Positions 23,058 to 35,829 of a stretch of DNA of 43,433 nt are shown one piece after another. Source of the stretch: Halorubrum sp. Boch-26 (lineage in GTDB: Archaea > Halobacteriota > Halobacteria > Halobacteriales > Haloferacaceae); the NCBI RefSeq assembly GCF_029889805.1, contig NZ_JARANT010000013.1:1-43433 (forward strand), read 5' to 3'. Positions within the stretch are counted from its first letter, which is position 1; every line of letters starts with the position of its first letter. The notes beneath the pieces are model-generated. The model saw only the letters and a program-made list of their open reading frames with translations. It was not told where the DNA came from and ran no database searches. The position numbers were made by a program, and so were the translations under genes.

Positions 23058-23505
23058 TGGCTGTTGATCGGGTGGCAGTGACGACCCAGAAGTTGACGGT
23101 GGCGTCGATCATCTCAATGTAATCGTCTGGATCTGTTGGCTTCGTTATATACGCGTTTGCCGATAATTCGTAACTGCGGTTGATGTCGTCGGGGTTCTCC
23201 GAACTCGAGACGATCACGACGGGGACGTCTCGGAACGCGGACTCGTTGCGGACGACCTCCAGCAGATCGAATCCCGATTTTCCTGGAAGGTTCAGGTCTA
23301 AGAGTATTAAATCCGGGTGGTCTTCCGGGCTATCAGCGTCGATTGCGGTGAGTTTATCCGCCGCCTGTTGCCCACTGTTGAGAACGTGGAGGGCGAGTTC
23401 GATATCGGCGGCGTCGACGCCCTCCCTGACAAGCCGGATGTCGGCCGGATTGTCCTCGATAGCAAACACGTGTGGAACCGACGAGTTGGCTGTCGATTTA
23501 TTCAT
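23050..23505 (-). CDS. Stand-alone response regulator (Rcp1-like)
   Basis: A 151-aa single-domain receiver. Acidic pair EDN, phosphoacceptor Asp in LILLDLNLPGKSG, Thr/Ser in VIVSSSENPDD, and KP in AYITKPTDPDDY are all present, so it should be phosphorylatable. The C-terminal NFWVV is typical of Rcp1-type partners of phytochrome-like kinases. It overlaps the neighbouring genes by 8 nt on each side, so it is coupled between the large sensor kinase and the REC-kinase. Confidence 0.93.
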   Translation of the reverse strand: MNKSTANSSVPHVFAIEDNPADIRLVREGVDAADIELALHVLNSGQQAADKLTAIDADSPEDHPDLILLDLNLPGKSGFDLLEVVRNESAFRDVPVVIVSSSENPDDINRSYELSANAYITKPTDPDDYIEMIDATVNFWVVTATRSTANE

Positions 23506-26500
23506 TCGTATCAGCCCCAGTTGGCAGGGAGATACGAAACGTCGACCCCTCTCTTGGTCGGGATTCAACGGTAATCTCGCCGCCGTGACGATCGACGATC
23601 TTCCGGCAGATTGACAGCCCGATTCCCGTTCCCTCGAACTCCTCGCGGGTGTGGAGCCGTTGGAACACCTCGAAGATTTCGTCGATCTGGTCGGCTTCCA
23701 TCCCGATGCCGTTATCGGCAACGTCGAAGGTTACCATCCCGTCGTGGTGGCTCACTGAGATGTCGATTTCCGGTTGCTCCGTATTGTATTTGATGCCGTT
23801 TTCGACGAGATTCTGGAACAGTTGGGAGAGCTGGTTTGCATCACCGAAGACCGTGGCCTCAGTTGCCGGTAGCGACACGGTGGCGTCGGTTTCGGTGATT
23901 TTGACATCGAGGCTGGCGGTGACGCGCTCGAAGAGTTCCGAGATGTCGATCACCTCAAAAGACTCCCCGCGAGTATCGACCCGCGAGTAGGCCAACAGCG
24001 CCTGAATCATGTTTCGCATCCGGTCGGCCCCGTCGACCGCGAACTCGATGAACTCGGCGGCGTCGTCGTCGAGGTCATCGCCGTACCGCCGGTCCAACAG
24101 CGTGAGGTAGCTCGATATCGTTCGTAGTGGCTCCTGTAAGTCGTGAGAGGCCGCATACGCGAACTGTTCGAGTTCCTCGTTGGACTGCTTGAGTTGTTGT
24201 TGGGTTTCACGGAGGACCGTTTCGCGCTCTGCACGGGTCAGAGCGGCTTCGACGGTCGACGAGAGCACTTCGAGGAGGTTGAAATCCGTTTCGGAGAAAT
24301 CTCGGTTTTCGGCCGAGCCGGCGATCATGACCCCGTGGTCGCCCAGCGGCACGATGGCTTCGGAGTTGAGATCTGTCTCCTCGTTGTGCAGCCCGTCGAC
24401 CGCGCTGAGATCGTCGTATATCTGAACGGTACCGGCTTCGAACGCGTCCCACGCGAGTGCCGTCCCCCGTTCGAAGGTCGGCTGCTCGCCGATGTACTCG
24501 CTGGCCTCCTCAGTTATCACCTCCGGAACGAGCGTCTCACGTTCCTCGTCGTACCACCAGACACCGGTCATCGGCATCTGCAGGATCGATTTGGCGCTTT
24601 CAACCGCGATGGATGCGATCTGTGACGTGGACGGCACGGCCATGAGTCGTTGGGCCGTCTCGTTGATCTCGTGCAGCTTCGTCTCGAAGGACTCCGTGGC
24701 GAGTTCGTGGCTGGCCCACTGTACGAGTAGCTTCACGAACGCGCGCTCCGTGTCAGTGAACTCGTGCTCACGAGCGTGTTGATCGGCGAAACAGAGCGTG
24801 CCGTACATCTCGCCGTCAACGGTGACGGTCCCGCCGATATAACAGCCGAGATCGAACCGTTTGTAGGCTGCGTCGTCTTTCCACCCTTCGGCGACCGAAT
24901 CTTGAATAGCAAGTGGTCCGGCTTGCTGGATGGTCTTTCGGCAGTACGACTCCGACTTCGGGGCCGAAGCTCCCGTCCGAAGCTGAGGGTGATCGCCAAC
25001 GGCCTGAATGACGTGTTGTGTGCCGTTTTCGATCTTGTTCAAGAAGCCGTACGGGATGCCGAGCCGTTCGGTCCCAAGTTCCAGTAGGGCCGTGAGTTTG
25101 GCTTCGAACCCCCGGTCGGTATCCGAGGCGATACCGGTGAGTTCCCGGACCGACTGTTCGCTTTCTCGGAGGGAACGTTCGAGGCGTTTCTGCTCGGTGA
25201 TATCGCGGGCCACAGCAATGTATCGAGTGTCCCCGCCGACTTCGACCTTATTTACCCACACCTCGACAGGGAACGTCTCACCGTCCCGTCGACGGTGTCT
25301 GCCTTCCACTTTGAGGATGTCGTTCAGTTCCATTTCCGACCAGATGGAGCTGAGTTCCGACTGGTCGATCCCCGCTTCGAATTCGGCCACGTGCATCGAG
25401 CAGAGCGTCTCCCGGTCGTAACCGAGCGACTCGGCCATCGTTTCGTTGACATCGAACACGGCTCCCTCGGCGTCGTGAATCACGATGCCGTCCGGAGAGT
25501 TGTCGAACAGGGCTCGAATGCGGGTTCGCTGTCGCATGAGTTCCTGTTCGCGCTCCTTTTGAGCAGTGATATCCCGGTTCGTGCAGATCAACTCACCGCT
25601 GTCGAGAATCGAGAGGCCGAGGTCTTGGTGGACAAGGGTCCCGTCCTGCTTTCGGCCGCGGGTTTCGCCTCGCCACGACCCGGTTTCGGTGAGTTCCGGA
25701 AACACTTGGGTTTCGATCCGTTCGATCTCGGCGTCACCGTAGAGGTCTCGCCACTCGCAGCCGAGCAGTTCCTCGGGGTCATACTCAAAGATGTCGGCGT
25801 GGGCTTGGTTCATATAGACGTACTCGTCGCCATCAAGGATGGCAATACCGTCCATCGCCACCTCCATGGCCGCCGCTTGGAGCTCTATTTCTGCATCACG
25901 CTCTTTTCGCTCGGTGATATCGGTCGCGATCCCGACCAGTCGACGCGTCGTGTTCGTCCCGGCGTGCAGTTCGGCGCGGGCTTCGATCCACAGCTGCGTC
26001 CCATCGTCTTGTTCGATGCGGTACTCCACTTGCAGCGTGTCGCCGTCCGCGGTTACCGATTCGAGTGATTCCCGTACCGTAGGGACATCGTCGGGATGAA
26101 CGGGCTCTAAGAACTCCTCGTAGGTCCCGTCGGACGCGCCGGGTTCGAGACCGAACAGCTGTTCCATGGATTCCGTCCAGACCACGTCCTCGGTCTCCAG
26201 ATTCAACTCCCAGACGCCCGCGTTCGTGGCCTCCAAGGCAACGGTGAGTCGCTGTGATATCTCTTCGAGTTCTCGTTCCCGCTGTTTGGCGTCTGTGACG
26301 TCGGTTGCAACGCCGAGTACGGCCTCCCTGTCGTGGTCGACGGGATCGTACGGGATTTTCGTCGTCTGTAGGGTTACCGTCTCGCCGTCGGCTTTCGTCA
26401 GCGGCTCTTCGGGGATCACTTTTTGCTCGCCCGAATTGATGACCGCGAGATCGTCTTCTTGGAACTGTTTGGCTTCGGCTTCCGACGTGACGAAATCGGC

Positions 26501-27901
26501 GTCGGTCGAGCCTTCGACCTCTTCGACGGTCGACCCGTAGGCGTCGGCAAGCGCCTGATTGACCAGGATGTACTCGTTGTCCCTGTCCTTAGCGAACACC
26601 AACTGTGGCAACAGGTCGATGATCTGGCGCAGCCGGTCGCGATTTGCGGCCGCCCGCTGTTTGTTCTGCCGTCGACTCAGTTCCTTGCCGATCCACTGGG
26701 CGAAGATACGCACCACCGTGCGTTCGCCCTCCGTGAACGGTCGCTGACGTGCGGCTGTCTGTGAGAAGTTGAGCGTACCGTACCGCTCGCCGTCGACAAC
26801 CACCGAGGTACCAATGTACGATTCGAGACCCTGAGACTGGTAGGCCGGATGGGCCGCTAGCTCGCTGTCGCCGGCGTTGGCCACGGCCACCAGTTCCTCG
26901 GTGTCGATGACGAGATCACAGAACGTCTCACCGAGGTCGAACTGATCGCCCGGCCGGATCGCGTCGTCCGGTGCGGTGACTCTTTCGGCGGTGTACTCGT
27001 CGCCGTCGATGGTCGAGAAAATGCCGAGGTCGAGTCCCAGATACTCACTGCCGACCTCGAGAATTGCGTCGATCCGTTCGCCGACCGACCGGTCATCGTC
27101 GGTCGAAATGTCGTGAAACGCTGCGAGCGCGTCGTTGTGGGATTCAAGCGCCTGTTCGTACTCGATCTGCGCGCTGACATCTCTGATCGAGCCGAGAAAC
27201 GCCAGCGTATCGTTGTCCGGGGCTTTGAGCGCCGTCCCGAAGGTTTCACCGGTGAACGTCGTTCCGTCGGCTCGCTCGTATTCGCTCAGATACGTCTCCT
27301 CGCGCACGGGGGCCTGGTCGTTGAACCGCCGGTCTCCTTGGCGGTCGTACTCCGCTTCATCGGCGTAGAGGAGGCGCGTCTCCTCGCCGATCACTTCGGT
27401 TGTCTCGTAGCCGAACAGCCGTTCAGCCGCTGGATTAAACTCGGTGATCCGGCGGTCGGTGTCGGCAACGATGAGGGCGTCTTCGGTCTCCTTGAAGACG
27501 GTCTCGAACAGCCGACGTTGCCGCTGTGCGTCGATTCGTTCGCTGCGCTCATCGGAGATATCGTAAAAAAACGCCGTGGCCCCGTTTTCGTCCGGATAGA
27601 TGCACACCTTGACCCAACGGTCGAGCTCCTCTTGGTAGCTTTCGAACCGGGTCGACGTCTGTGTCGACAGCGCCTGCTGGAGTTCCTCCTCGACGGTTGT
27701 CTCACTGATATCCGACAGGGCCTCCCAGACGTCTCGGCCGAGTAGTTCGTCGGGTGACCGTTCCAACATCGCTGCCGCCCGTTCGTTGACGAAGGTGAAT
27801 TCACCGTCGCCGTTGAGTGCACAGATCGCCTCGTCGACGCGACCCAGTATCTTCCCGGGCGTGCAGTCTTCGACCGAGTTGTCGGTTATATCAGCGCTCA
27901 T
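23498..27901 (-). CDS. Multi-sensor histidine kinase, six PAS and three GAF domains
   Basis: A 1467-aa soluble kinase. By eye the order is PAS (about 20-115), PAS (130-245), GAF (260-415), PAS (430-545), PAS (555-670), PAS (675-795), PAS (800-920), GAF (935-1085), GAF (1095-1230), HisKA with phospho-His in FAYAASHDLQEPLRTI, and HATPase with NLVENGIKYN, DNGIGM and GTGIGLSI. There are no clear membrane helices, so inputs are cytoplasmic (redox, light or small ligands). The HisKA type resembles phytochrome-like kinases, matching the Rcp1-like receiver next to it. It starts overlapping the upstream regulator (ATGA). Confidence 0.92.
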   Translation of the reverse strand: MSADITDNSVEDCTPGKILGRVDEAICALNGDGEFTFVNERAAAMLERSPDELLGRDVWEALSDISETTVEEELQQALSTQTSTRFESYQEELDRWVKVCIYPDENGATAFFYDISDERSERIDAQRQRRLFETVFKETEDALIVADTDRRITEFNPAAERLFGYETTEVIGEETRLLYADEAEYDRQGDRRFNDQAPVREETYLSEYERADGTTFTGETFGTALKAPDNDTLAFLGSIRDVSAQIEYEQALESHNDALAAFHDISTDDDRSVGERIDAILEVGSEYLGLDLGIFSTIDGDEYTAERVTAPDDAIRPGDQFDLGETFCDLVIDTEELVAVANAGDSELAAHPAYQSQGLESYIGTSVVVDGERYGTLNFSQTAARQRPFTEGERTVVRIFAQWIGKELSRRQNKQRAAANRDRLRQIIDLLPQLVFAKDRDNEYILVNQALADAYGSTVEEVEGSTDADFVTSEAEAKQFQEDDLAVINSGEQKVIPEEPLTKADGETVTLQTTKIPYDPVDHDREAVLGVATDVTDAKQRERELEEISQRLTVALEATNAGVWELNLETEDVVWTESMEQLFGLEPGASDGTYEEFLEPVHPDDVPTVRESLESVTADGDTLQVEYRIEQDDGTQLWIEARAELHAGTNTTRRLVGIATDITERKERDAEIELQAAAMEVAMDGIAILDGDEYVYMNQAHADIFEYDPEELLGCEWRDLYGDAEIERIETQVFPELTETGSWRGETRGRKQDGTLVHQDLGLSILDSGELICTNRDITAQKEREQELMRQRTRIRALFDNSPDGIVIHDAEGAVFDVNETMAESLGYDRETLCSMHVAEFEAGIDQSELSSIWSEMELNDILKVEGRHRRRDGETFPVEVWVNKVEVGGDTRYIAVARDITEQKRLERSLRESEQSVRELTGIASDTDRGFEAKLTALLELGTERLGIPYGFLNKIENGTQHVIQAVGDHPQLRTGASAPKSESYCRKTIQQAGPLAIQDSVAEGWKDDAAYKRFDLGCYIGGTVTVDGEMYGTLCFADQHAREHEFTDTERAFVKLLVQWASHELATESFETKLHEINETAQRLMAVPSTSQIASIAVESAKSILQMPMTGVWWYDEERETLVPEVITEEASEYIGEQPTFERGTALAWDAFEAGTVQIYDDLSAVDGLHNEETDLNSEAIVPLGDHGVMIAGSAENRDFSETDFNLLEVLSSTVEAALTRAERETVLRETQQQLKQSNEELEQFAYAASHDLQEPLRTISSYLTLLDRRYGDDLDDDAAEFIEFAVDGADRMRNMIQALLAYSRVDTRGESFEVIDISELFERVTASLDVKITETDATVSLPATEATVFGDANQLSQLFQNLVENGIKYNTEQPEIDISVSHHDGMVTFDVADNGIGMEADQIDEIFEVFQRLHTREEFEGTGIGLSICRKIVDRHGGEITVESRPREGSTFRISLPTGADTNE

Positions 27902-28797
27902 TCGGCGCCTCCGATCGGGAGGCGTTCGATCGCCTCGGCGTCGACATCGTCGAGATCGATGCCCGTGGATTCGAGTTCATCGAGTCGGCTCCGGAGGCGC
28001 TGATACAGCTCGTTCGTTTCGAGAGTTTCCTCGGGGTACTCGACCTGTAACAGCGCGAGTTTCGACCGAATCCCGAGATACTCTTGCAGTTCCGTACTGT
28101 ACTCTCGGCGGTCGAAGAGATCCGCGACCACTGCGTGGAGTTCGTCTTGGCGAACGGGTTTCGTAAGGTACTCGTCGAACTCCATGTCGAGAATCTCGAA
28201 GTCGGGATCTTCGGAGGTCACCATGACGACGCGGATGTCGTACCGTTGAGACCGAATCCAGTCGAGAACTTCTCCGCCGGAGAGGCCCGGCATTCGGCGA
28301 TCCAAGACGACGACACCGACGTCGGTGTCGAGATTCCGGAGCGTCTCTTCGCCGTCATTGGCTGTCCGGACGGTGTAGTCGTTTTCCAGCCAAGCGGTGT
28401 GCATCGTGTTGATGCGCTTGTTGTCGTCAGCGACCAAAACGACCTGTTCGGTCTCCGGTTCGGCGAGATGGGTTTCGCCCCAGTCGGCGAGCGATTCGAT
28501 CACGTCGTCAAGCTCTTTGCCCCGCTCGGTTAGCGTGTAGTTGACGCGGAGCGGACTCTGGCTGATCTCGTGACGCTCGATGATCTCGTACTCTCGGAGA
28601 TCTGTCAGCGCGTCGGTCAGTACCTTCGCAGAGATACCATCGAGCCGACGCTCGAGGTCACTGAATCCGAGGCCGTCGTCGTTGGACAGACAGCGGACGA
28701 TAGCCGGATGCCACTTTTTCGAGAGCAGGGAGACACTGTCGAGAAGCGACTCCGGAACCACTGGTGTCTCGTTTGTGTGTGAATCAGTCATATTCAT
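27898..28797 (-). CDS. HxlR-type wHTH fused to a receiver and HalX domain
   Basis: 299 aa. Residues about 20-110 form an HxlR-like winged helix (LLSKKWHPAIVRCL, FSDLERRLDGISAKVLTDAL, then a wing NYTLTERGKEL). A receiver follows (about 115-235): VLVADDNKR, phosphoacceptor Asp in VVVLDRRMPGLSG, and KP in EYLTKPVRQ. The C-terminus has a HalX domain (FDRREYSTELQEYLGIRSK). HalX normally follows a receiver in haloarchaea; an N-terminal HxlR domain gives this protein a DNA-binding head. It is the likely transcription factor output of the operon. An ATG at 28791 is an alternative start. Confidence 0.9.
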   Translation of the reverse strand: MNMTDSHTNETPVVPESLLDSVSLLSKKWHPAIVRCLSNDDGLGFSDLERRLDGISAKVLTDALTDLREYEIIERHEISQSPLRVNYTLTERGKELDDVIESLADWGETHLAEPETEQVVLVADDNKRINTMHTAWLENDYTVRTANDGEETLRNLDTDVGVVVLDRRMPGLSGGEVLDWIRSQRYDIRVVMVTSEDPDFEILDMEFDEYLTKPVRQDELHAVVADLFDRREYSTELQEYLGIRSKLALLQVEYPEETLETNELYQRLRSRLDELESTGIDLDDVDAEAIERLPIGGAE

Positions 28798-28801
28798 ACA
28801 T

Positions 28802-29275
28802 CTACTCAGCAGAATATAAGGACTCTGCCGGATACTCCGCCCACTCGAACCAGAACTGTTCGATCGATCCAATGAGGTCGACGTATCTCTCAGACGTTTG
28901 CGGGATCTTGACATGTGCGTTCCCGCCGGCCTCGTACGTCATGTCGACATTACTCTCGTCGGGGTTGAGGACGATCACGGGCAGTGTTTCGAGACGCGGG
29001 CTGGATTTGATCGCATGAAGGACGGTCATCCCGTCGGGCAGCTCGAAATCGAACTGCAGCAACACGAGGTCCGGCCGTGGCTGGTCGACTGACGGTTCAC
29101 CGTCGCTGGTATCAGTAAGCCACTGGATTGCTTCCCGACCGTCGGTGACGACATCGATGTCGACCGGCCGAGTACAGGACTCGTCACACGCTTCCTGCAG
29201 ATTTATCGGGGGCGTTCCGACAAACAGGACACGCAGTTTTTCGCCGTCTTGGCTCTGTGCGACGTTCGGAACCAT
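28802..29275 (-). CDS. Degenerate receiver (pseudo-response regulator)
   Basis: A 157-aa Rcp1-like receiver fold (strand VLFVG, then LVLLQ, LPVIVLN, and a C-terminal FWFEW like its sister at 23050). The residues for phosphorylation are altered: acidic pair EDN is GTP, the phosphoacceptor Asp aligns with Gln in LVLLQFDFELPDG, and the Lys of KP aligns with Ile in HVKIPQTSE. It probably cannot be phosphorylated in the usual way. The ATG at 29275 overlaps the stop of a 14-codon leader ORF (TAATG); the longer start at 29302 is out of step with that arrangement. Confidence 0.82.
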   Translation of the reverse strand: MVPNVAQSQDGEKLRVLFVGTPPINLQEACDESCTRPVDIDVVTDGREAIQWLTDTSDGEPSVDQPRPDLVLLQFDFELPDGMTVLHAIKSSPRLETLPVIVLNPDESNVDMTYEAGGNAHVKIPQTSERYVDLIGSIEQFWFEWAEYPAESLYSAE

Positions 29276-29319
29276 TAGATAACCGCCCGCTTGGGGAAGC
29301 ATTCCAACTGATGATACAT
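29275..29319 (-). CDS. 14-codon leader ORF of the phosphorelay operon
   Basis: ATG at 29317-29319 opens MYHQLECFPKRAVI and ends in TAA that shares one A with the next ATG (TAATG). It begins 42 nt after GTTAGC of the promoter and 32 nt after the first base of the TATA-like run, the leaderless position. Equivalent mini-ORFs occur at the two sister promoters at 31977 and 34637. Confidence 0.5.
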   Translation of the reverse strand: MYHQLECFPKRAVI

Positions 29320-29702
29320 TGCTGAAACGTCTTCGAACCTCGTATATATAACGTCGCTAACTTCGAGGTAATCGAGGTACTTACCGTTAGCTTAGCCACT
29401 GAGATGTACGTTAGTAGGGTACTTACCGCAGTGTTCGCCCACGTTTATGTATACCAGACACCCCCTTTGTGTATGATCATACGGTACTTATCCGCAGACT
29501 CGGTGCACACCCGACGGTGTGATTCAGAGCCGTGCGCGGCGGGGAAGCGGAGGCGCTCGTCTCGACGCCGTGTGACCATCGATCGCCCACCCAACCAGCC
29601 GACCACACGCACCGTCAGTGCCGAACAGATAACTCCGCCTGTCGAGACAGGAGCGTCTCACGACGGGGTCGACGACCGGTGTTAGACGGGAAGTCAACTC
29701 AG
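29303..29702. other. Divergent control region between the phosphorelay operon and the GAF-kinase gene
   Basis: About 400 bp. Besides the minus-strand promoter it holds GGTACTTACCG at 29376-29386 and 29418-29428 and the related GGTACTTATCCGCAG at 29483-29497. A plus-strand TATA-like TTATGTATACC lies at 29445-29455. An ATG at 29473, 28 nt downstream of that element, opens a 70-codon Arg-rich frame ending at 29685, 17 nt before the kinase start; it may be a leader ORF or untranslated. Confidence 0.5.
29342..29396 (-). promoter_or_regulatory. Promoter of the phosphorelay operon with shared element
   Basis: Read on the minus strand: GGTAAGT (29385-29379), 17 bp, GTTAGC (29361-29356), then TTATATATAC (29351-29342). 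The half-site and GTTAGC are 24 bp apart start to start, identical to the promoters at 31903 and 34561. A weak left half GCTAAGC (29396-29390) sits 4 bp before GGTAAGT, where the other two have ACTTACC. Confidence 0.65.
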
Positions 29703-31532
29703 ATGAGTAGCGCTAACCCCACTGTTCACACAGCACGAAACCGGCTTGACGAGATTGTTCGCCAAGACACGTCCACTCAACAGAAAGCGACGGACGCACT
29801 CGACCTTGGGATCGAGTATCTGGGGGCCGACTTCGGCTACCTCGCGGTGACCGACGAGCAATTCAACTACTGGGAGCCGATCGTTAGTACGGAAATACCC
29901 GAGGGCGTCCCGGAGCACAGCCCCCGCGAGCTCTCGACTACCTACTGTCGGCGAACAACTGAGGATGACACGCAGATCGCTCTCCACGACCTCCCAAATC
30001 AGGGGTTTGCCGACGATCCGGGGTATCAAACGTTCGGCTGCCACTGCTATCTCGGCACGCCGCTCATCGTCGACGGAACACAGCGTGGGACAGTGTGTTT
30101 TGTTTCCGAAGAGCCACGGAGCAGGCCGTTTGATGACGCGGAGCTGCTGTTTGCAGAACTGTTGGCGCGAGTGCTGGGAGACGAATTTAAATGCGATCGG
30201 AAAGAGAAGAAAATTCGAAATCAGGCCAACCTCACGACCGTTCTCAGCCGGATTCTTCGGCACAATCTCCGGAACAACTTGACGGTTATCCGAGGGCACG
30301 CCCAAGCGATGGCCGACCAGTTGGAGTCCGAGCTCCGTAGCGACCTGATTCTCAAAAACGTCGACAAACTCATCAAGCTAGGCGACAAGGCCCGCACCCT
30401 CGAGTCGGTTATCGATCAGACGGCCTCGCGGGAGCCGACCGATATCGGCGCACTCGCTGCGCGTGTCGTTAGCACGGCCGACGACGAGACCCCTGCGGCG
30501 TCGATCACTGTCGACGCCAGCGAGGGACTCACGACACCAGTCCGTCCGAACTTCGAACGGGCGCTCAAAGAGCTACTCGACAACGCTGTCAAACACGGCG
30601 GGGACAGTCCGACCGTCGCTGTCGAGGTCGAACAGACGCCGACTGCGGTTGCGGTTCATGTCACCGACGACGGACCGGGGCTTCCTCGACAGGAACGGGA
30701 CGTACTCGAAAACGAGGCCGAAACACCGCTTGTCCACGGCAGCGGTCTCGGCCTCTGGATCGTCCACTGGATCGTCACCGGCCACGGTGGCACTGTCGAG
30801 TCGACGGTGACCGCGGACGGAACCAGGATGACCGTGTCGGTTCCGCAAGCCACAGAGCCGCCTGCCGACTCGATGCCGACGGGACAGGATCGGGTTCCGG
30901 AATGCACGCGGGCACGCGATCAGTACCGGGCAGCCTTCGAGGAGTCGAACGATGCGATGGTAATCACCGACGACGACGGGCGAATTATCGACGCCAACTC
31001 GACGGCGGCCGATCTCTACGGCGCCACCAAGGAGGCACTGCTCGGTCAGTCGGTCCCCGAGCTCCTCCCGGACGACTTCGATTTCGACGCCACGTGGGAG
31101 TCGTTCCTCGCGAACGGAACCACGCGTGACACGATGACGATCGTCGACGGTGATAGGTGCGAACGGACCGTCGAGTACACCGGAACCGCGAACATCGTCC
31201 CCGGCCAACACCTCTTCGTTTCCCGCGACATCACCGATCGCGTCGAACAGCAGTCCGAACTCCGGGCAAAAGCGCGGGCGACGGACGACGAACCGACCGG
31301 AATCACGATCGGAGACACCAGTGTGAGCGGTAATCCACTGAGACATGCGAACGAGCGGTTCTGCGAGCAATTCGGCTCCGACAAATTCGAAGTTCTCGGG
31401 CGGAACTGCCGGTTCCCGCAGGACGAAGAGATCAACGCCGAGGCACTCGACAGAATCCGGCAGTCGATTTCCAACCGGGAGCCGATCACCGAGACGGTAC
31501 GAGACTACTGCGAGGACGGAACAGAGTTCTGA
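29703..31532 (+). CDS. GAF-histidine kinase-PAS-LOV protein, truncated in the LOV domain
   Basis: 609 aa from ATG 29703. GAF (about 15-165), HisKA with phospho-His in LRHNLRNNLTVIRGHA, HATPase with ELLDNAVKHGG, TDDGPGLP and GSGLGLWIV, then PAS (about 415-530) and a LOV-type PAS (about 540-609). The LOV part has NPLRHANERF and GRNCRFPQ, the motif with the flavin-reactive Cys, but the frame stops after EDGTEF, where LOV domains continue with FW and three more strands. Sensors placed after the kinase core are unusual. It is divergent from the phosphorelay operon. Confidence 0.88.
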   Translation: MSSANPTVHTARNRLDEIVRQDTSTQQKATDALDLGIEYLGADFGYLAVTDEQFNYWEPIVSTEIPEGVPEHSPRELSTTYCRRTTEDDTQIALHDLPNQGFADDPGYQTFGCHCYLGTPLIVDGTQRGTVCFVSEEPRSRPFDDAELLFAELLARVLGDEFKCDRKEKKIRNQANLTTVLSRILRHNLRNNLTVIRGHAQAMADQLESELRSDLILKNVDKLIKLGDKARTLESVIDQTASREPTDIGALAARVVSTADDETPAASITVDASEGLTTPVRPNFERALKELLDNAVKHGGDSPTVAVEVEQTPTAVAVHVTDDGPGLPRQERDVLENEAETPLVHGSGLGLWIVHWIVTGHGGTVESTVTADGTRMTVSVPQATEPPADSMPTGQDRVPECTRARDQYRAAFEESNDAMVITDDDGRIIDANSTAADLYGATKEALLGQSVPELLPDDFDFDATWESFLANGTTRDTMTIVDGDRCERTVEYTGTANIVPGQHLFVSRDITDRVEQQSELRAKARATDDEPTGITIGDTSVSGNPLRHANERFCEQFGSDKFEVLGRNCRFPQDEEINAEALDRIRQSISNREPITETVRDYCEDGTEF

Positions 31533-31619
31533 ACCCGCCGGACGATCGCATCGGTCGAAGAGGAGCGGGGATGGCTCGGGAACCGCGTCGGGTTCCGAGA
31601 CGGCGGAATGAAATGTCGG
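31533..31619 (+). pseudogene. In-frame remnant of the LOV domain C-terminus
   Basis: Reading on in the same frame after the TGA at 31530-31532 gives TIASVEEERGW and NRVGFRDGG, which follow the LOV pattern RIAPVxDEDG and VGFQxD at the right spacing. The TGA stands where LOV domains have Trp (TGG), so a point mutation or sequencing error could have split the domain. Confidence 0.5.
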
Positions 31620-31902
31620 TGGCGTCGTGGGTCACTCTCGGGGGTATTCGGGGTTTGTCCCGATCGTGAATCGGACTCGCCGCGTCCACGCTGAGCCCGT
31701 CAAAGACGACGTGAGGGTCGGCGTTTGATCGCGGAATTCGATTGACTCGAGGAGCCTCAGCACGACGCTCGTTCCGATCTGCAATTCTCCCTCGAAGAGG
31801 TCAGCCGTCGAGTACACCAGCGACGGTCGACGTTTGTGTCGACCCCCGCTGTTCGGATCGCAGGGCCGACGCTCCCGCGCGGGACCGTCGATCTCGGCTC
31901 CC
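31620..31902. other. Region between the LOV remnant and the TasA-like promoter
   Basis: No supported gene. A minus-strand frame from a GTG at 31904 to 31632 (contains DLFEGELQIGTSVVLRLLESI) has reasonable codon composition over its middle, but its start lies in the palindrome of the TasA-like promoter and I find no family for it. It could be a decayed gene fragment. Confidence 0.25.
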
Positions 31903-31956
31903 ACTTACCACCGGGTAACACGGCTGCTAACTTATCAGTTAGCTTATGTATATACG
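31903..31956 (+). promoter_or_regulatory. Promoter of the TasA-like gene with shared palindrome and TATA box
   Basis: ACTTACC (31903-31909), 4 bp, GGTAACA (31914-31920), 17 bp, GTTAGC (31938-31943), then TTATGTATATACG (31944-31956). ACTTACC to GTTAGC is 35 bp and GGTAA to GTTAGC is 24 bp, identical to the promoter at 34561. ATG 31977 lies 39 nt after GTTAGC and forms the start-stop ATGTAATG with the gene's ATG at 31982. Confidence 0.7.
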
Positions 31957-31981
31957 TGGCGCTCACATTGAATTGCATGTA

Positions 31982-32572
31982 ATGTCACAGCTTACGAAAA
32001 CGCTGCTCGTTGCCGGAGTGCTCCTTGTCGCTGGGGTCTCCGTTGGCACGAGTGCGTTCACCACGGCACAGGTCGACCGGCAAGCAAACGTTGACGTCGT
32101 CGCCGACGAGGCCGGACTGCTCGGCCTTACCGACGGCACTTCCGGCGAGTTAGTGTTCCAAGACGGTGAAGGCCAGCTCGGCATCGACTTCACCGCGGGC
32201 ACGGCAGGCGGCGCGAACACGAACGCGCTGTTCGAACTGGGCAACCCCGCCGACCCGACCGCCTCACAGGCGTTCATGATCACGAACAACGACGTCGAGT
32301 CCCACGTGATCGAGACCGAATACAGAGCCAACACCACTGACGCCACCGCCGAGGACAACCTCAAGTTCGAGGTCTACGACGGCAGTGGCACTCTCGTCGA
32401 CACGATCAGCGCCTCGGGCACGACCGCATCGTGGAGCGCTCCGGCCAACACCACCTACTACGTCGTCGTCACTGTCGATACGGGCCACAGCTCCGACCTT
32501 CTCGGTCCGAATGCGGACCTCTCGGGGACGCTCGGATTCAGCATCGACGACACCGTCGAAGGTGGCGCCTAA
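31982..32572 (+). CDS. Secreted TasA/DUF1102-like protein
   Basis: A 196-aa protein with a hydrophobic signal (KTLLVAGVLLVAGVSVGTSAF) followed by FTTAQVDRQANVDVVADEAGLLGL (pieces quoted), the hallmark of haloarchaeal DUF1102 proteins and similar to SipW-processed, TasA-like precursors. The mature part is beta-rich, Thr/Asp-rich and has no Cys. TasA relatives form extracellular fibres in Bacillus, and related subunits form bundling pili in some archaea. A SipW-like peptidase is encoded 65 bp downstream. Fibre formation is inferred from family and context. The ATG overlaps the TAA of a start-stop codon pair (ATGTAATG, 31977-31984). Confidence 0.8.
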   Translation: MSQLTKTLLVAGVLLVAGVSVGTSAFTTAQVDRQANVDVVADEAGLLGLTDGTSGELVFQDGEGQLGIDFTAGTAGGANTNALFELGNPADPTASQAFMITNNDVESHVIETEYRANTTDATAEDNLKFEVYDGSGTLVDTISASGTTASWSAPANTTYYVVVTVDTGHSSDLLGPNADLSGTLGFSIDDTVEGGA

Positions 32573-32637
32573 TTCCGTCGCAAGCAGCTACTGAGTAACC
32601 GCGCCGACCGCCTCCATTTCCGACGTTCCAGACACCA

Positions 32638-33705
32638 ATGATACACAAAGCTGGCATCGCTGTCGGGCTCTTGGTCCTCGTAGCACTTGCCCTGCCAGCC
32701 GGAGCACCTGTCCAGATTTCGTACGTCTCCTCGGACAGTATGTCGCCGACAATCGACACCGACGAGGGGTACGTCCTCGTCCCGGTCGAGACAGTTCAGC
32801 CCGGAGATGTCATCACGTTCTACTCCGAGGAGCGGTCAACGTACGTAACACACCGGGCGACACAGGTGACTCCTGACGGTATCGTCACCAAGGGCGACGG
32901 TAACCCCTCGACTGACCAAGCGTCGGGCTACTCCCTCGTCAGTCCGTCCGACGTGTCGGGAAAACTCCTAACGCTCGGAGGGAGTCTGGTCGTCATCCCG
33001 TATCTCGGAACGGTGATCGGGGCGATCACGAGCTACTGGTATCTGGTCGCGGGCGCACTCGCTGCCTACCTGCTGACCAGTTCGGGGTCCGACAGACGGA
33101 GGACGCGGAAAAACGTCCTCAGGAGTCGGGAGGTCGTTCTCCCGGTGCTGGTGTTGGTGATCGTTGTGAGTGTCGCGTTCGTCTCGATGGGGGCCGTCGG
33201 GCAGACGGAGGTCTACACAGTCACCGAACAGCCGACCCCGCTCCCGTCGACGCTGACGGTCGGCGAGAGCGAAACCGAATCGATCTCACTCCAGATGACA
33301 ACATCGCCGTTCGCACACGTCGTCACCGAGGCCCACGGAATGGAAATCGTCCGCACGACACTGGAGCCAGGCGTGGCTGACGGCAGCCAACCGCCGGGGG
33401 AGGCCGCCGGCTGGCTTCCATGGCAACCGTTCGAGTCGTCGAGCCGGACCGTCGAGACCCGGATTACGGCGCCGGAGACCGCGGGGTCCCACTCGACGAG
33501 CATCCGGATACATCCCTACCCTGCGACGCTGCCGGAGGGTATCATCACACTGCTCCACGAGATACACCCGCTGGTCGCGGCGATCGCGACCGTGGTGACC
33601 GGCGTCCTGCCACTGTACGTCATCTACTGGCTGCTCGTCGACTCGACAGTGCCGCTTCGGAGCAGTCGAAGTCGGCTTGAGCGCACGTTCGGAGGTCGTC
33701 GATGA
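32638..33705 (+). CDS. SipW-like signal peptidase I with extra C-terminal region
   Basis: A 355-aa membrane enzyme. An N-terminal helix precedes the catalytic Ser in YVSSDSMSPTID, the basic position is His (THRATQV), as in archaeal and ER-type S26B peptidases, and Asp is in TKGDGNPSTD. The domain covers about residues 1-150. Helices at about 118-135 and 160-180 follow, then an extracellular beta-rich region (about 190-300) and a last helix (about 305-330). It likely processes the flanking secreted proteins. Its stop overlaps the next ATG (ATGA at 33702). Confidence 0.88.
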   Translation: MIHKAGIAVGLLVLVALALPAGAPVQISYVSSDSMSPTIDTDEGYVLVPVETVQPGDVITFYSEERSTYVTHRATQVTPDGIVTKGDGNPSTDQASGYSLVSPSDVSGKLLTLGGSLVVIPYLGTVIGAITSYWYLVAGALAAYLLTSSGSDRRRTRKNVLRSREVVLPVLVLVIVVSVAFVSMGAVGQTEVYTVTEQPTPLPSTLTVGESETESISLQMTTSPFAHVVTEAHGMEIVRTTLEPGVADGSQPPGEAAGWLPWQPFESSSRTVETRITAPETAGSHSTSIRIHPYPATLPEGIITLLHEIHPLVAAIATVVTGVLPLYVIYWLLVDSTVPLRSSRSRLERTFGGRR

Positions 33706-34514
33706 CCCTCGGTCGACGGTCACGCTCGCGGTCTCGAAACGGAGGCGGCAGTTGGGCACTGCTCCTCGTCGTCGGGGTCGTAATCGGGCTTCTCGTCTCC
33801 GGGTTCGTGGCCGCACCCTCAGTGGCGTTCACGACTGGCTCGGTCGATCGTGGAGCCGCGGCCCCGGTTGTAGATGACACCGGTGGCTTCCTCGGTATCG
33901 ATGTCACAGACAGCGTACGGGCAGGCGGTGAGGACCGGCTCGTCACCGTGACGAACCAACTCAATCGAACACTGACTGTCGACGTGTCTGCGTCGGCCGC
34001 ATTGTCGAACAGTCGAGCAACGCTCGGCCCTGGCGACTCGATTACGACGGCGGCCAGCGTTAGCTGTGAGTCTCCGCAGAGCGAACTGACCGTGACGATT
34101 TCCGCGAACGCAAACGGACAGTTCAGCGGGCGTGCCACTCGATCGACGACGGTCGATACGAGCGGCTGTGCGGACTCGACGCTCGTCTTCGGGAACACCG
34201 AGATCGTCGATCAGACGACGAGCGCTAAGGGGGGAAAAGCGGAGTACGCCGTCAGCTACACCGTCGCGAACGACACGGGCTCGTTCGATCGGGTCGGAGT
34301 CGAGATCAGGAATCTCGACCGGAGTGACGGCGTAATAACCAGAGAGTCGAGTGCACGGAGCGACACGATCAGCTTCAAAAGTGGCGGTCAGCGAACCGGT
34401 GAGCGCTTCGAGATCACGGTTCGGCTGTTCGACAGCACTGGCGAGGTCCAGAGCGAACGCATCGTGGTCACGGATAGGGCCGACGGCAGTGGAACGGTGA
34501 ACGAATCGACGTGA
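33702..34514 (+). CDS. Second secreted protein of the SipW-linked cassette
   Basis: 270 aa. A basic N-terminus (GRRSRSRSRNGGG) and a hydrophobic segment (ALLLVVGVVIGLLVSGFV) are followed by SVAFTTGSVDRGAAAPVVDD and GGFLGID, the same pattern after cleavage as the TasA-like protein upstream, so it is probably a SipW substrate. The remainder is beta-rich with two possible immunoglobulin-like halves (about 70-150 and 155-255). Two Cys (SCES and SGCAD) may form a disulfide. No enzyme motif is visible. It is translationally coupled to the peptidase gene. Confidence 0.75.
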   Translation: MTLGRRSRSRSRNGGGSWALLLVVGVVIGLLVSGFVAAPSVAFTTGSVDRGAAAPVVDDTGGFLGIDVTDSVRAGGEDRLVTVTNQLNRTLTVDVSASAALSNSRATLGPGDSITTAASVSCESPQSELTVTISANANGQFSGRATRSTTVDTSGCADSTLVFGNTEIVDQTTSAKGGKAEYAVSYTVANDTGSFDRVGVEIRNLDRSDGVITRESSARSDTISFKSGGQRTGERFEITVRLFDSTGEVQSERIVVTDRADGSGTVNEST

Positions 34515-34560
34515 GCTGGGAGAGCGTCGTGATCGTCCGCTGCGGTGAGGCCTCCGACTG

Positions 34561-34616
34561 ACTTACCCGGCGGTAAGTGGCCCGCTCACAGTCGGGTTAG
34601 CATACACTTTTTGACA
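34561..34616 (+). promoter_or_regulatory. Promoter of the DUF5305 gene with perfect ACTTACC/GGTAAGT palindrome
   Basis: ACTTACC (34561-34567), CGGC, GGTAAGT (34572-34578), 17 bp, GTTAGC (34596-34601), then the TATA-like ATACACTTTTTG. The palindrome arms are perfect. The spacing to GTTAGC is the same as at 31903 and 29385. A mini-ORF ATG lies 41 nt after GTTAGC (34637). Confidence 0.7.
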
Positions 34617-34636: not shown

Positions 34637-34675
34637 ATGAACGAACGGTTCACCGTTGTGAGGTCGATCGGATGA
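34637..34675 (+). CDS. 12-codon leader ORF of the DUF5305 gene
   Basis: ATG 34637-34639 opens MNERFTVVRSIG and ends in TGA at 34673-34675, overlapping the DUF5305 ATG (ATGA). Its position after the shared promoter element matches the leader ORFs at 29319 and 31977. The peptide itself is not recognised. Confidence 0.5.
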   Translation: MNERFTVVRSIG

Positions 34676-35829
34676 CGAGCGACCTTCAGCTTCGAGCAAA
34701 ATACCTCTGTATCAAGTACTGGCACCGTCTCGTACCGGTACTGCTTCTCGTCGGCGTTATCGCAGTCGGCAGCGTTGCGGCCGGCGTCGCCTCGGAGCCG
34801 CAACCACAACCGGTCGCCGTCGAGACCGATTCGATGACCGTCGAGACGACGCTGTCGACGGAGGCGACGGTAACCGGAAACACGTCGTTGTACAATCGGA
34901 GCGAGACGCTGACCGATATGCCGGTGTACCTCCGGACGGCAACCCCGGAAGTGGAGTTGATCGCCGTCACGTCGACGCCGGCCGACCGAACCGTCTCGGT
35001 CACACAGCAGGTCGTCCTCGAGCTGTCGGCAACGCGGAATGGAGAGGTCTTTTGGCGGGACTCACAGACCCTCGCTATCGATACTCAGGAGGTGACAAAC
35101 GGCACCGCGCGAACCCGTACCACGCTCGATGTCCAACAGCTCGCCCGCGAACAGCTGTCGAACGTGACCACTGAAGCCGGCGACATCGGTACGATCGAAG
35201 CGCAGGTCACGGCCAACGCGCTGTACCACACCGACAGATACAACGGGCAAACGACGGCTGTGGCTCCGCTGACGGTTACCGACCGCGTGTACGAACTGCA
35301 GACCCCGCAGCGGGACCAACAGACGAACGTGACAACGATACAGCGGACCGTCGCCGGAGGCGAAACGGCGAGTGGTCTCTTCGGCTCTGGTGGCCGCGTC
35401 TCTCCGCGCGATCTGGGAACCAGTCTCGGCGGTCTCGGGGCGATAAGCCTCGCAGTGGGCGTTTGGCACACCAGACGGCAGATCGGTGATTTCGACGAGT
35501 TCCGTCGGCAGTACGAACGCGTGCGGTACGTCGAGTGGATCTCTCGGGGAACCATCCCGACGACAGGAAAATACGCTCGTGTCCCGGTCGAAGCGCTGGT
35601 CGATCTGGTCGACATCGCCATCGACTCCGAGAAGCGGGTGATTCACGACACCACGAAAGACATCTACGCCGTCGTCGACGGGAACCTCATGTACGAGTAC
35701 CGTGACGGCGAGGACGGGAATACCGACGAGTTCGGATTCGCCTCGTTTACCGATTCCACACCGTCACAGTCGTTGGATCTGGATCTGGACGCGCTGGATC
35801 ACGACAGGGACCAGTCGACCGAACGTTGA
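34672..35829 (+). CDS. DUF5305 family membrane protein
   Basis: A 385-aa protein with an N-terminal helix (RLVPVLLLVGVIAVGSVAAGVA), an extracellular beta-rich domain (about 45-235) rich in Thr and Val with several N-x-T/S sites, a second helix (about 245-262), and a cytoplasmic C-terminal domain of about 120 residues ending in an Asp-rich tail. It matches the DUF5305 pattern (YRSTATVTN-like NTSLYNRSETL and PVEALVDLVDIAIDSEKRVIHD). The family usually lies beside SipW-like peptidases and DUF1102 proteins, so a scaffold or anchoring role, analogous to TapA, is possible but unproven. Confidence 0.8.
   Translation: MTSDLQLRAKYLCIKYWHRLVPVLLLVGVIAVGSVAAGVASEPQPQPVAVETDSMTVETTLSTEATVTGNTSLYNRSETLTDMPVYLRTATPEVELIAVTSTPADRTVSVTQQVVLELSATRNGEVFWRDSQTLAIDTQEVTNGTARTRTTLDVQQLAREQLSNVTTEAGDIGTIEAQVTANALYHTDRYNGQTTAVAPLTVTDRVYELQTPQRDQQTNVTTIQRTVAGGETASGLFGSGGRVSPRDLGTSLGGLGAISLAVGVWHTRRQIGDFDEFRRQYERVRYVEWISRGTIPTTGKYARVPVEALVDLVDIAIDSEKRVIHDTTKDIYAVVDGNLMYEYRDGEDGNTDEFGFASFTDSTPSQSLDLDLDALDHDRDQSTER

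Follow-up and report, generated by a model that had tools for sequence, protein, structure and literature searches.

A tandem-dyad promoter element as the probable operator of an HxlR-REC-HalX two-component regulator in a Halorubrum gene island

Results

A composite element at three promoters of the island

The window analyzed here is the whole 43,433-nucleotide stretch of contig NZ_JARANT010000013.1 of Halorubrum sp. Boch-26. It contains an island in which a stand-alone receiver-domain (REC) protein, an HxlR-REC-HalX response regulator and PAS/GAF histidine kinases are encoded next to a fibre-subunit-like secreted protein, a signal peptidase and a DUF5305 membrane protein. Three promoters of this island (P1 to P3) share one composite element, which we propose, with a probability of roughly 0.8, to be the operator and upstream activating sequence (UAS) of the HxlR-REC-HalX regulator, forming a positive-feedback two-component circuit that would drive its own operon, a surface-fibre operon and the DUF5305 gene. 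The three elements are as follows.

29346..29395, minus strand: composite element P1, before the REC, HxlR-REC-HalX and kinase operon, with two mismatches to the consensus; dyad 1 pairs GTAAG with CTAAG, a degenerate upstream half, and dyad 2 is ATTAC-N6-GTTAG; the TATA is TATATA (about 29342-29350, minus strand)
31903..31953, plus strand: composite element P2, at the promoter of the fibre-subunit operon; its leave-one-out position weight matrix (PWM) score is 53.7, the highest null score being 4.9; dyad 1 at 31903-31920, dyad 2 (GCTAAC-N6-GTTAGC) at 31926-31943, TATA at about 31945-31955 (plus strand)
34561..34611, plus strand: composite element P3, before the DUF5305 gene, with no mismatches to the consensus; perfect dyad 1 at 34561-34578, dyad 2 at 34584-34601, TATA-like CTTTTT at about 34606-34614 (plus strand)

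An initial annotation of this DNA had described one spaced motif at these promoters, and its coordinates proved exact: GGTAAGT at 29385-29379 (minus strand) and 34572-34578 (plus strand) and GGTAACA at 31914-31920 (plus strand) are in all three cases separated by exactly 17 bp from a downstream GTTAGC (29361-29356, 34596-34601 and 31938-31943, respectively), past which comes an AT-rich, TATA-like run. At two of the sites (31903-31909 and 34561-34567) ACTTACC was likewise found 4 bp upstream, and the palindrome ACTTACC-N4-GGTAAGT is perfect at 34561-34578, and only there. The element is larger than was first seen, as a third half-site, [A/G]CTAAC, pairs with GTTAGC to form a second dyad. The full unit emerged when 21 sites of this island and related ones, gathered by half-sites 2 and 4 alone, were aligned: CTWAC-N6-GTWAG, 7 bp, CTAAC-N6-GTTAG(C), about 6 bp, WTWT. 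It consists of two tandem dyads of one type (CTWAC-N6-GTWAG), whose centers are separated by 23 bp, and its end lies 6 bp short of the TATA box. Within each dyad the centers of the paired half-sites are 11 bp apart. The other two half-sites were found to be conserved in this alignment, which had been collected without them; core half-site columns held about 1-2 bits and spacer columns about 0.1-0.5 bits, which is near random. At nearly all of the 21 sites WTWT lies 6 bp past GTTAGC, which places the element at a fixed distance upstream of the transcription factor B recognition element (BRE) and TATA box, as in a UAS. The dyads are always upstream of the TATA box and never overlap it or the start site.

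Both strands of the genome (2,763,128 bases, 2.76 Mb; 177 contigs, 95% complete) were searched by pattern. GGTAA-N19-GTTAGC matched three times genome-wide, each time in the island (reversed control, 0; about 0.5-0.6 expected per genome), so the motif does not occur at the random density that would have spoken against it. When strong sites were defined by at most two mismatches to the full element, a fourth match was obtained outside the island on contig C123 (22410-22459, minus strand; L005 4911-4960), 68 bp before the gene of a 968-amino-acid PAS histidine kinase. The regulon had been described as self-contained; with this fourth site at an unlinked PAS kinase gene, it is not entirely so. 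A palindrome at C93:6192 was not counted as a copy of the operator; it adjoins a coenzyme A transferase gene and looks like chance.

The element is kept at equivalent promoters in relatives

The class search covered 391 genomes (390 besides our own, G000; G, L and C numbers label genomes, loci and contigs, respectively), in which the strict pattern with up to three mismatches gave 72 matches versus 16 for the reversed pattern. Orthologues of the HxlR-REC-HalX regulator (56-81% identity) were found in 7 of the 390 other genomes, and most of their islands repeat the same plan, with the element before the REC-HxlR-kinase operon, the fibre-subunit operon and the DUF5305 gene; its presence upstream of orthologous genes in other haloarchaea was the second check that the initial annotation had called for. 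The four-half-site element stands at equivalent promoters in G149 (Halohasta salina), G229 (Halorientalis salina), G365, G349, G066 and G205, and it thereby occurs in other haloarchaeal genera, in the same family and in a second family. All three promoter types carry it in G149, G229, G365 and G066, and two of the three do so by the four-half-site pattern in G349 and G205, the latter also having a one-mismatch REC-operon site. Upstream of the fibre gene, leave-one-out PWM scores were 42-60 in six genomes, with none of 560 control windows exceeding 4.9, and the element stops 28 bp short of the fibre start codon in 6/6 of these genomes. The element was mostly missing before fibre-gene homologues in genomes without an orthologous regulator.

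Some variation in arrangement was observed. The fibre-gene element of G066 and G275 has one extra base between the dyads (24 bp between centers at one promoter), and in G066 a single dyad pair is flanked by two TATA boxes, one toward the REC-HxlR operon and the other toward the orthologue of the GAF-kinase gene (29703..31532); the symmetry of each dyad allows one pair to serve two diverging promoters. In the diverged islands of G013, G076 and G313, dyads of the form G/CTWAC-N6-GTWAC are kept upstream of the DUF5305 gene; in most half-sites the outer base is G in place of C. A dyad is also kept upstream of the fibre gene in at least two of these islands. The similarity among promoters could, in principle, be a functionless remnant of common ancestry, left by promoters copied within the island or carried horizontally, and the island is patchy enough that it may move horizontally (of about 45 genomes of the same genus in the class search, 2 have an orthologue). 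We consider this barely credible, since the spacers have diverged and the half-sites and distances are kept, diverged islands hold altered-sequence dyads at the equivalent promoters, and the held-out test described below agrees.

Dyads accompany HxlR-REC-HalX genes

The regulator and phosphorelay genes of the island are as follows.

27898..28797, minus strand: HxlR-REC-HalX response regulator, the proposed dyad binder (Pfam HxlR 1.4e-20, Response_reg 1.1e-18, HalX 1.7e-11)
28802..29276, minus strand: stand-alone divergent receiver-domain protein, first gene of the operon (weak Response_reg match, 8e-4)
23498..27901, minus strand: multi-PAS/GAF histidine kinase, third gene of the operon (Pfam)
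29703..31532, plus strand: divergent GAF-histidine kinase-PAS protein (Pfam)

The HxlR domain of the island regulator (PF01638; Protein Data Bank profile matches to YodB, 1.3e-17, and HxlR, 4e-12) has an intact recognition helix with the conserved residues S-A-K-V-L-T-D, as expected of an HxlR/DUF24 domain. Both REC (PF00072) and HalX (PF08663) are present, as in REC-HalX regulators, with Asp166 in VVLDRRMPG invariant across 10 orthologues, and the AlphaFold model of the protein has a predicted local distance difference test score (pLDDT) of 80. The start of the stand-alone REC protein was set by comparison with its orthologues, which share the start place. This protein lacks the usual acidic pair near the N-terminus and keeps a candidate phospho-Asp (FDFELPDG); it is possibly an atypical receiver or pseudo-receiver.

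Strong sites were found in 7/8 genomes with an orthologue of the regulator (at least 56% identity, our own included) versus 12/383 others (Fisher p 1.5e-9), and in 11 of these 12 a different HxlR-REC-HalX protein of full length is encoded. Presence of the motif tracks the regulator, which agrees with the earlier argument that identical spacing points to one regulator and makes the HxlR-REC-HalX protein the best candidate by genomic association. Around HxlR-REC-HalX genes of every identity class, TWAC-N6-GTWA was enriched at spacer 6 alone (28, 15 and 29 matches), and this holds for regulators just 33-52% identical (29 and 15 matches versus about 3 and 2 at other spacers). No enrichment was seen near HxlR-less REC-HalX genes, with one TWAC-N6-GTWA match around 20 genes. 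In distant lineages the dyad is often found 120-350 bp ahead of the regulator gene or shortly past it, and some sites in the class search precede twin-arginine translocation (Tat) or lipoprotein genes. Two HxlR-REC-HalX paralogues, L053 (G066:C5) and L055 (G231:C4), have a degenerate HxlR domain that has lost its recognition helix, and no dyads were found near either. Both loci adjoin signal peptidase/DUF5305 homologues.

In a held-out test of 34 further genomes of the family, four had a strong site and 4/4 of these encode an HxlR-REC-HalX protein. Of the two held-out genomes with a 63-77% identical orthologue, G406 carries the element upstream of its fibre, DUF5305 and REC genes and G419 upstream of DUF5305. 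This test weighs most because some of the genomes in which the motif was counted had also served to define it; some p-values also follow choices made once the data had been seen.

Three further HxlR-domain proteins are encoded in the genome, and a TWAC-N5-GTWA dyad lies close to one orthologue group of stand-alone HxlR genes, so that a regulator from outside the island might bind the element and the HxlR-REC-HalX gene be a mere fellow target. This is very unlikely given that N6 dyads track HxlR-REC-HalX genes across many lineages and contexts, that same-genus genomes with stand-alone HxlR and without the orthologue have no element, and that few N6 dyads lie near stand-alone HxlR genes (5 in 91 kb). 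The TWAC-N5-GTWA sites of stand-alone HxlR genes and REC-HalX controls were not counted as instances of the present operator; judged by their different flanks, they appear to be two other conserved sites. At the stand-alone HxlR loci (L159-L166 and L174), TWAC-N5-GTWA occurs with the flank TAGGTTACGTCCGTATACGTAGTTAC, about 190 bp upstream of one HxlR gene, and is possibly another HxlR operator. At the HxlR-less REC-HalX control loci L115, L118, L120, L121 and L130, a conserved CTTTGTAACC...GTAAACTGAA site lies near the genes.

The fibre operon and the DUF5305 gene

The genes behind P2 and P3 are as follows.

31982..32572, plus strand: fibre-subunit-like secreted protein, first gene behind P2 (no Pfam match)
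32638..33705, plus strand: archaeal/SipW-type signal peptidase I (NCBIfam TIGR02228 2.2e-15, above cut-off; SipW model 1.3e-7, below its own cut-off)
33702..34514, plus strand: second secreted fibre-related protein (NCBIfam TafC 1.6e-7, 30.8 bits versus a cut-off of 410)
34672..35829, plus strand: DUF5305 membrane protein, served by P3 (Pfam PF17231 7.3e-31)

The product of 31982..32572 had been named DUF1102, for which Pfam offers no support; its NCBIfam match is to TafE (0.008, 15.9 bits versus a cut-off of 155). The TafE and TafC matches are both far below the NCBIfam cut-offs, and neither protein belongs to the curated Taf families. The predicted fold of the fibre subunit (model pLDDT 75) is nearest to the Sulfolobus thread (7pnb, Z 8.7), the Pyrobaculum bundling pilus (7ueg, Z 8.5) and the Natrinema Tafi pilus (9p0a, Z 6.6), the background of such matches being Z of about 5-6. 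A cognate SipW-type signal peptidase in the operon, as expected of a fibre system, is indicated by the TIGR02228 match. The second fibre protein and the DUF5305 protein gave no match in solved-structure sequence searches. Overall, the suggestion of a secreted fibre is supported by fold comparison and not by sequence family membership, and the P2 operon may encode a donor-strand-exchange-type surface fibre.

Predicted transcript starts and short open reading frames

The TATA box lies at about +7 to +10 past GTTAGC. In haloarchaea the TATA-to-start distance sets the expected transcription start, which is therefore predicted near +35. An ATG near this position opens a short open reading frame (mini-ORF), which has 11-12 codons at DUF5305 and 10-17 at REC. 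In the island, the following units were found.

34637..34675, plus strand: predicted transcription start and 12-codon mini-ORF MNERFTVVRSIG, with a TGA that overlaps the DUF5305 start (ATGA)
29275..29319, minus strand: predicted transcription start and 14-codon mini-ORF MYHQLECFPKRAVI, with a TAA that overlaps the REC start (TAATG)
31977..31984, plus strand: start-stop unit ATGTAATG (ATG-TAA), overlapping the fibre-subunit start codon; ATGTAATG is found in several genomes

The relative frame of the mini-ORF is constant (14/14) and its stop overlaps the main start in 12/14. A similar mini-ORF precedes DUF5305 in held-out G419 and in diverged G013 and G313; length and overlap recur in other genera, and the mini-ORF sequences are not conserved. 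A shuffle test of the overlap is weak at DUF5305, where ATGA makes an in-frame stop automatic. The C123 site is also followed by an 11-codon mini-ORF, at the same distance as at the island promoters. Judged from these predicted starts, the controlled transcripts appear to be leaderless.

Discussion

We propose that dimers of the HxlR winged-helix domain bind the CTWAC-N6-GTWAG dyads, so that two dimers would sit side by side, 23 bp from center to center, at the upstream edge of the TATA/BRE. Once the receiver domain had been phosphorylated by the PAS/GAF kinases of the island, the bound dimers would most likely recruit or stabilize the TATA-binding protein (TBP) and transcription factor B (TFB). 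The circuit would then drive its own operon (positive autoregulation), the fibre operon (fibre subunit, dedicated SipW-type signal peptidase and second fibre protein) and the DUF5305 membrane protein, together with one PAS kinase elsewhere in the genome. Members of the HxlR/DUF24 family such as YodB and QsrR are dimers that act on dyads. In the DNA complex of Bacillus subtilis HxlR, an activator, the recognition helices are 34.8 Å apart (PMC7835342), and with half-site centers 11 bp apart the dyad fits an HxlR-family dimer. The analysis shows the element, its conservation, its fixed geometry and its association in genomes with HxlR-REC-HalX genes, and it is this association that ties DNA to protein; direct binding, phosphorylation control, activation over repression and fibre function are inferred.

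The same regulator could use the same operator as a repressor. Most bacterial HxlR/DUF24 proteins, e.g., YodB and QsrR, repress, and since dyad 2 ends just 6 bp before the TATA box, bound dimers might block TBP and TFB until released by phosphorylation. Repression is nevertheless unlikely, as the dyads lie upstream of the TATA box and never over it or the start site, and tandem site pairs at a fixed distance, as found here, are typical of activators. Moreover, B. subtilis HxlR itself activates (PMC7835342). Several points weigh against the proposed activator circuit: the upstream half-site of P1 is degenerate; G154 has a 65% identical orthologue, yet 3-mismatch sites only and no fibre operon nearby; G370 has a site and no full-length HxlR-REC-HalX protein among the matches listed; related genomes are non-independent observations; the fibre fold match is moderate (Z 6.6-8.7, model pLDDT 75); and the sign of regulation is read from site position.

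With HxlR/DUF24 dimers such as B. subtilis HxlR (PMC7835342), the proposed system would have in common the winged-helix dimer fold, binding to an inverted repeat spaced by about one helical turn and, as for HxlR, activation. It differs in that the island domain is fused to REC and HalX and presumably controlled by a kinase rather than by a cysteine sensor, and in its operator (half-site CTWAC/GTWAG, a 6-bp spacer and two tandem sites before an archaeal TATA box). A 2018 census of archaeal two-component systems listed the HxlR-REC-HalX architecture, with DNA binding or any other HalX function undocumented and no target given (PMC5847659), whereas here both a site and a regulon are predicted. 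In the part of the literature searched (open-access), no HxlR-REC-HalX site or regulon was found, and nothing direct on Taf fimbriae or archaeal HxlR operators. The activator sites of Bat and GvpE, which are upstream activating sequences of haloarchaea, also adjoin the BRE/TATA directly. The island element shares this position and differs in DNA-binding family, in sequence, in its two-component regulator and in having two tandem dyads. With donor-strand fibres of the TasA, thread, bundling-pilus and Tafi type (7pnb, 7ueg, 9p0a), the putative island fibre would share the subunit fold, as predicted by the model, a dedicated SipW-type signal peptidase and a second fibre protein; it differs in having no above-cut-off sequence match, in the presence of a DUF5305 protein and in its link to a two-component circuit.

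A broader reading, whose chances we put somewhat short of even, is that HxlR-REC-HalX proteins may be a haloarchaea-wide DNA-binding two-component class with the shared operator code TWAC-N6-GTWA, often governing secreted or surface proteins, and that the leaderless island transcripts may begin with a 10-17-codon mini-ORF from which the main gene would be translated by termination-reinitiation. To our knowledge, DNA-binding archaeal response regulators are few. The predicted operator, its geometry, the regulon and the covarying variants make the output of a large haloarchaeal two-component class directly testable, and they would link a phosphorelay to the building of a pilus-like surface fibre, in parallel to the control of biofilm matrix in bacteria.

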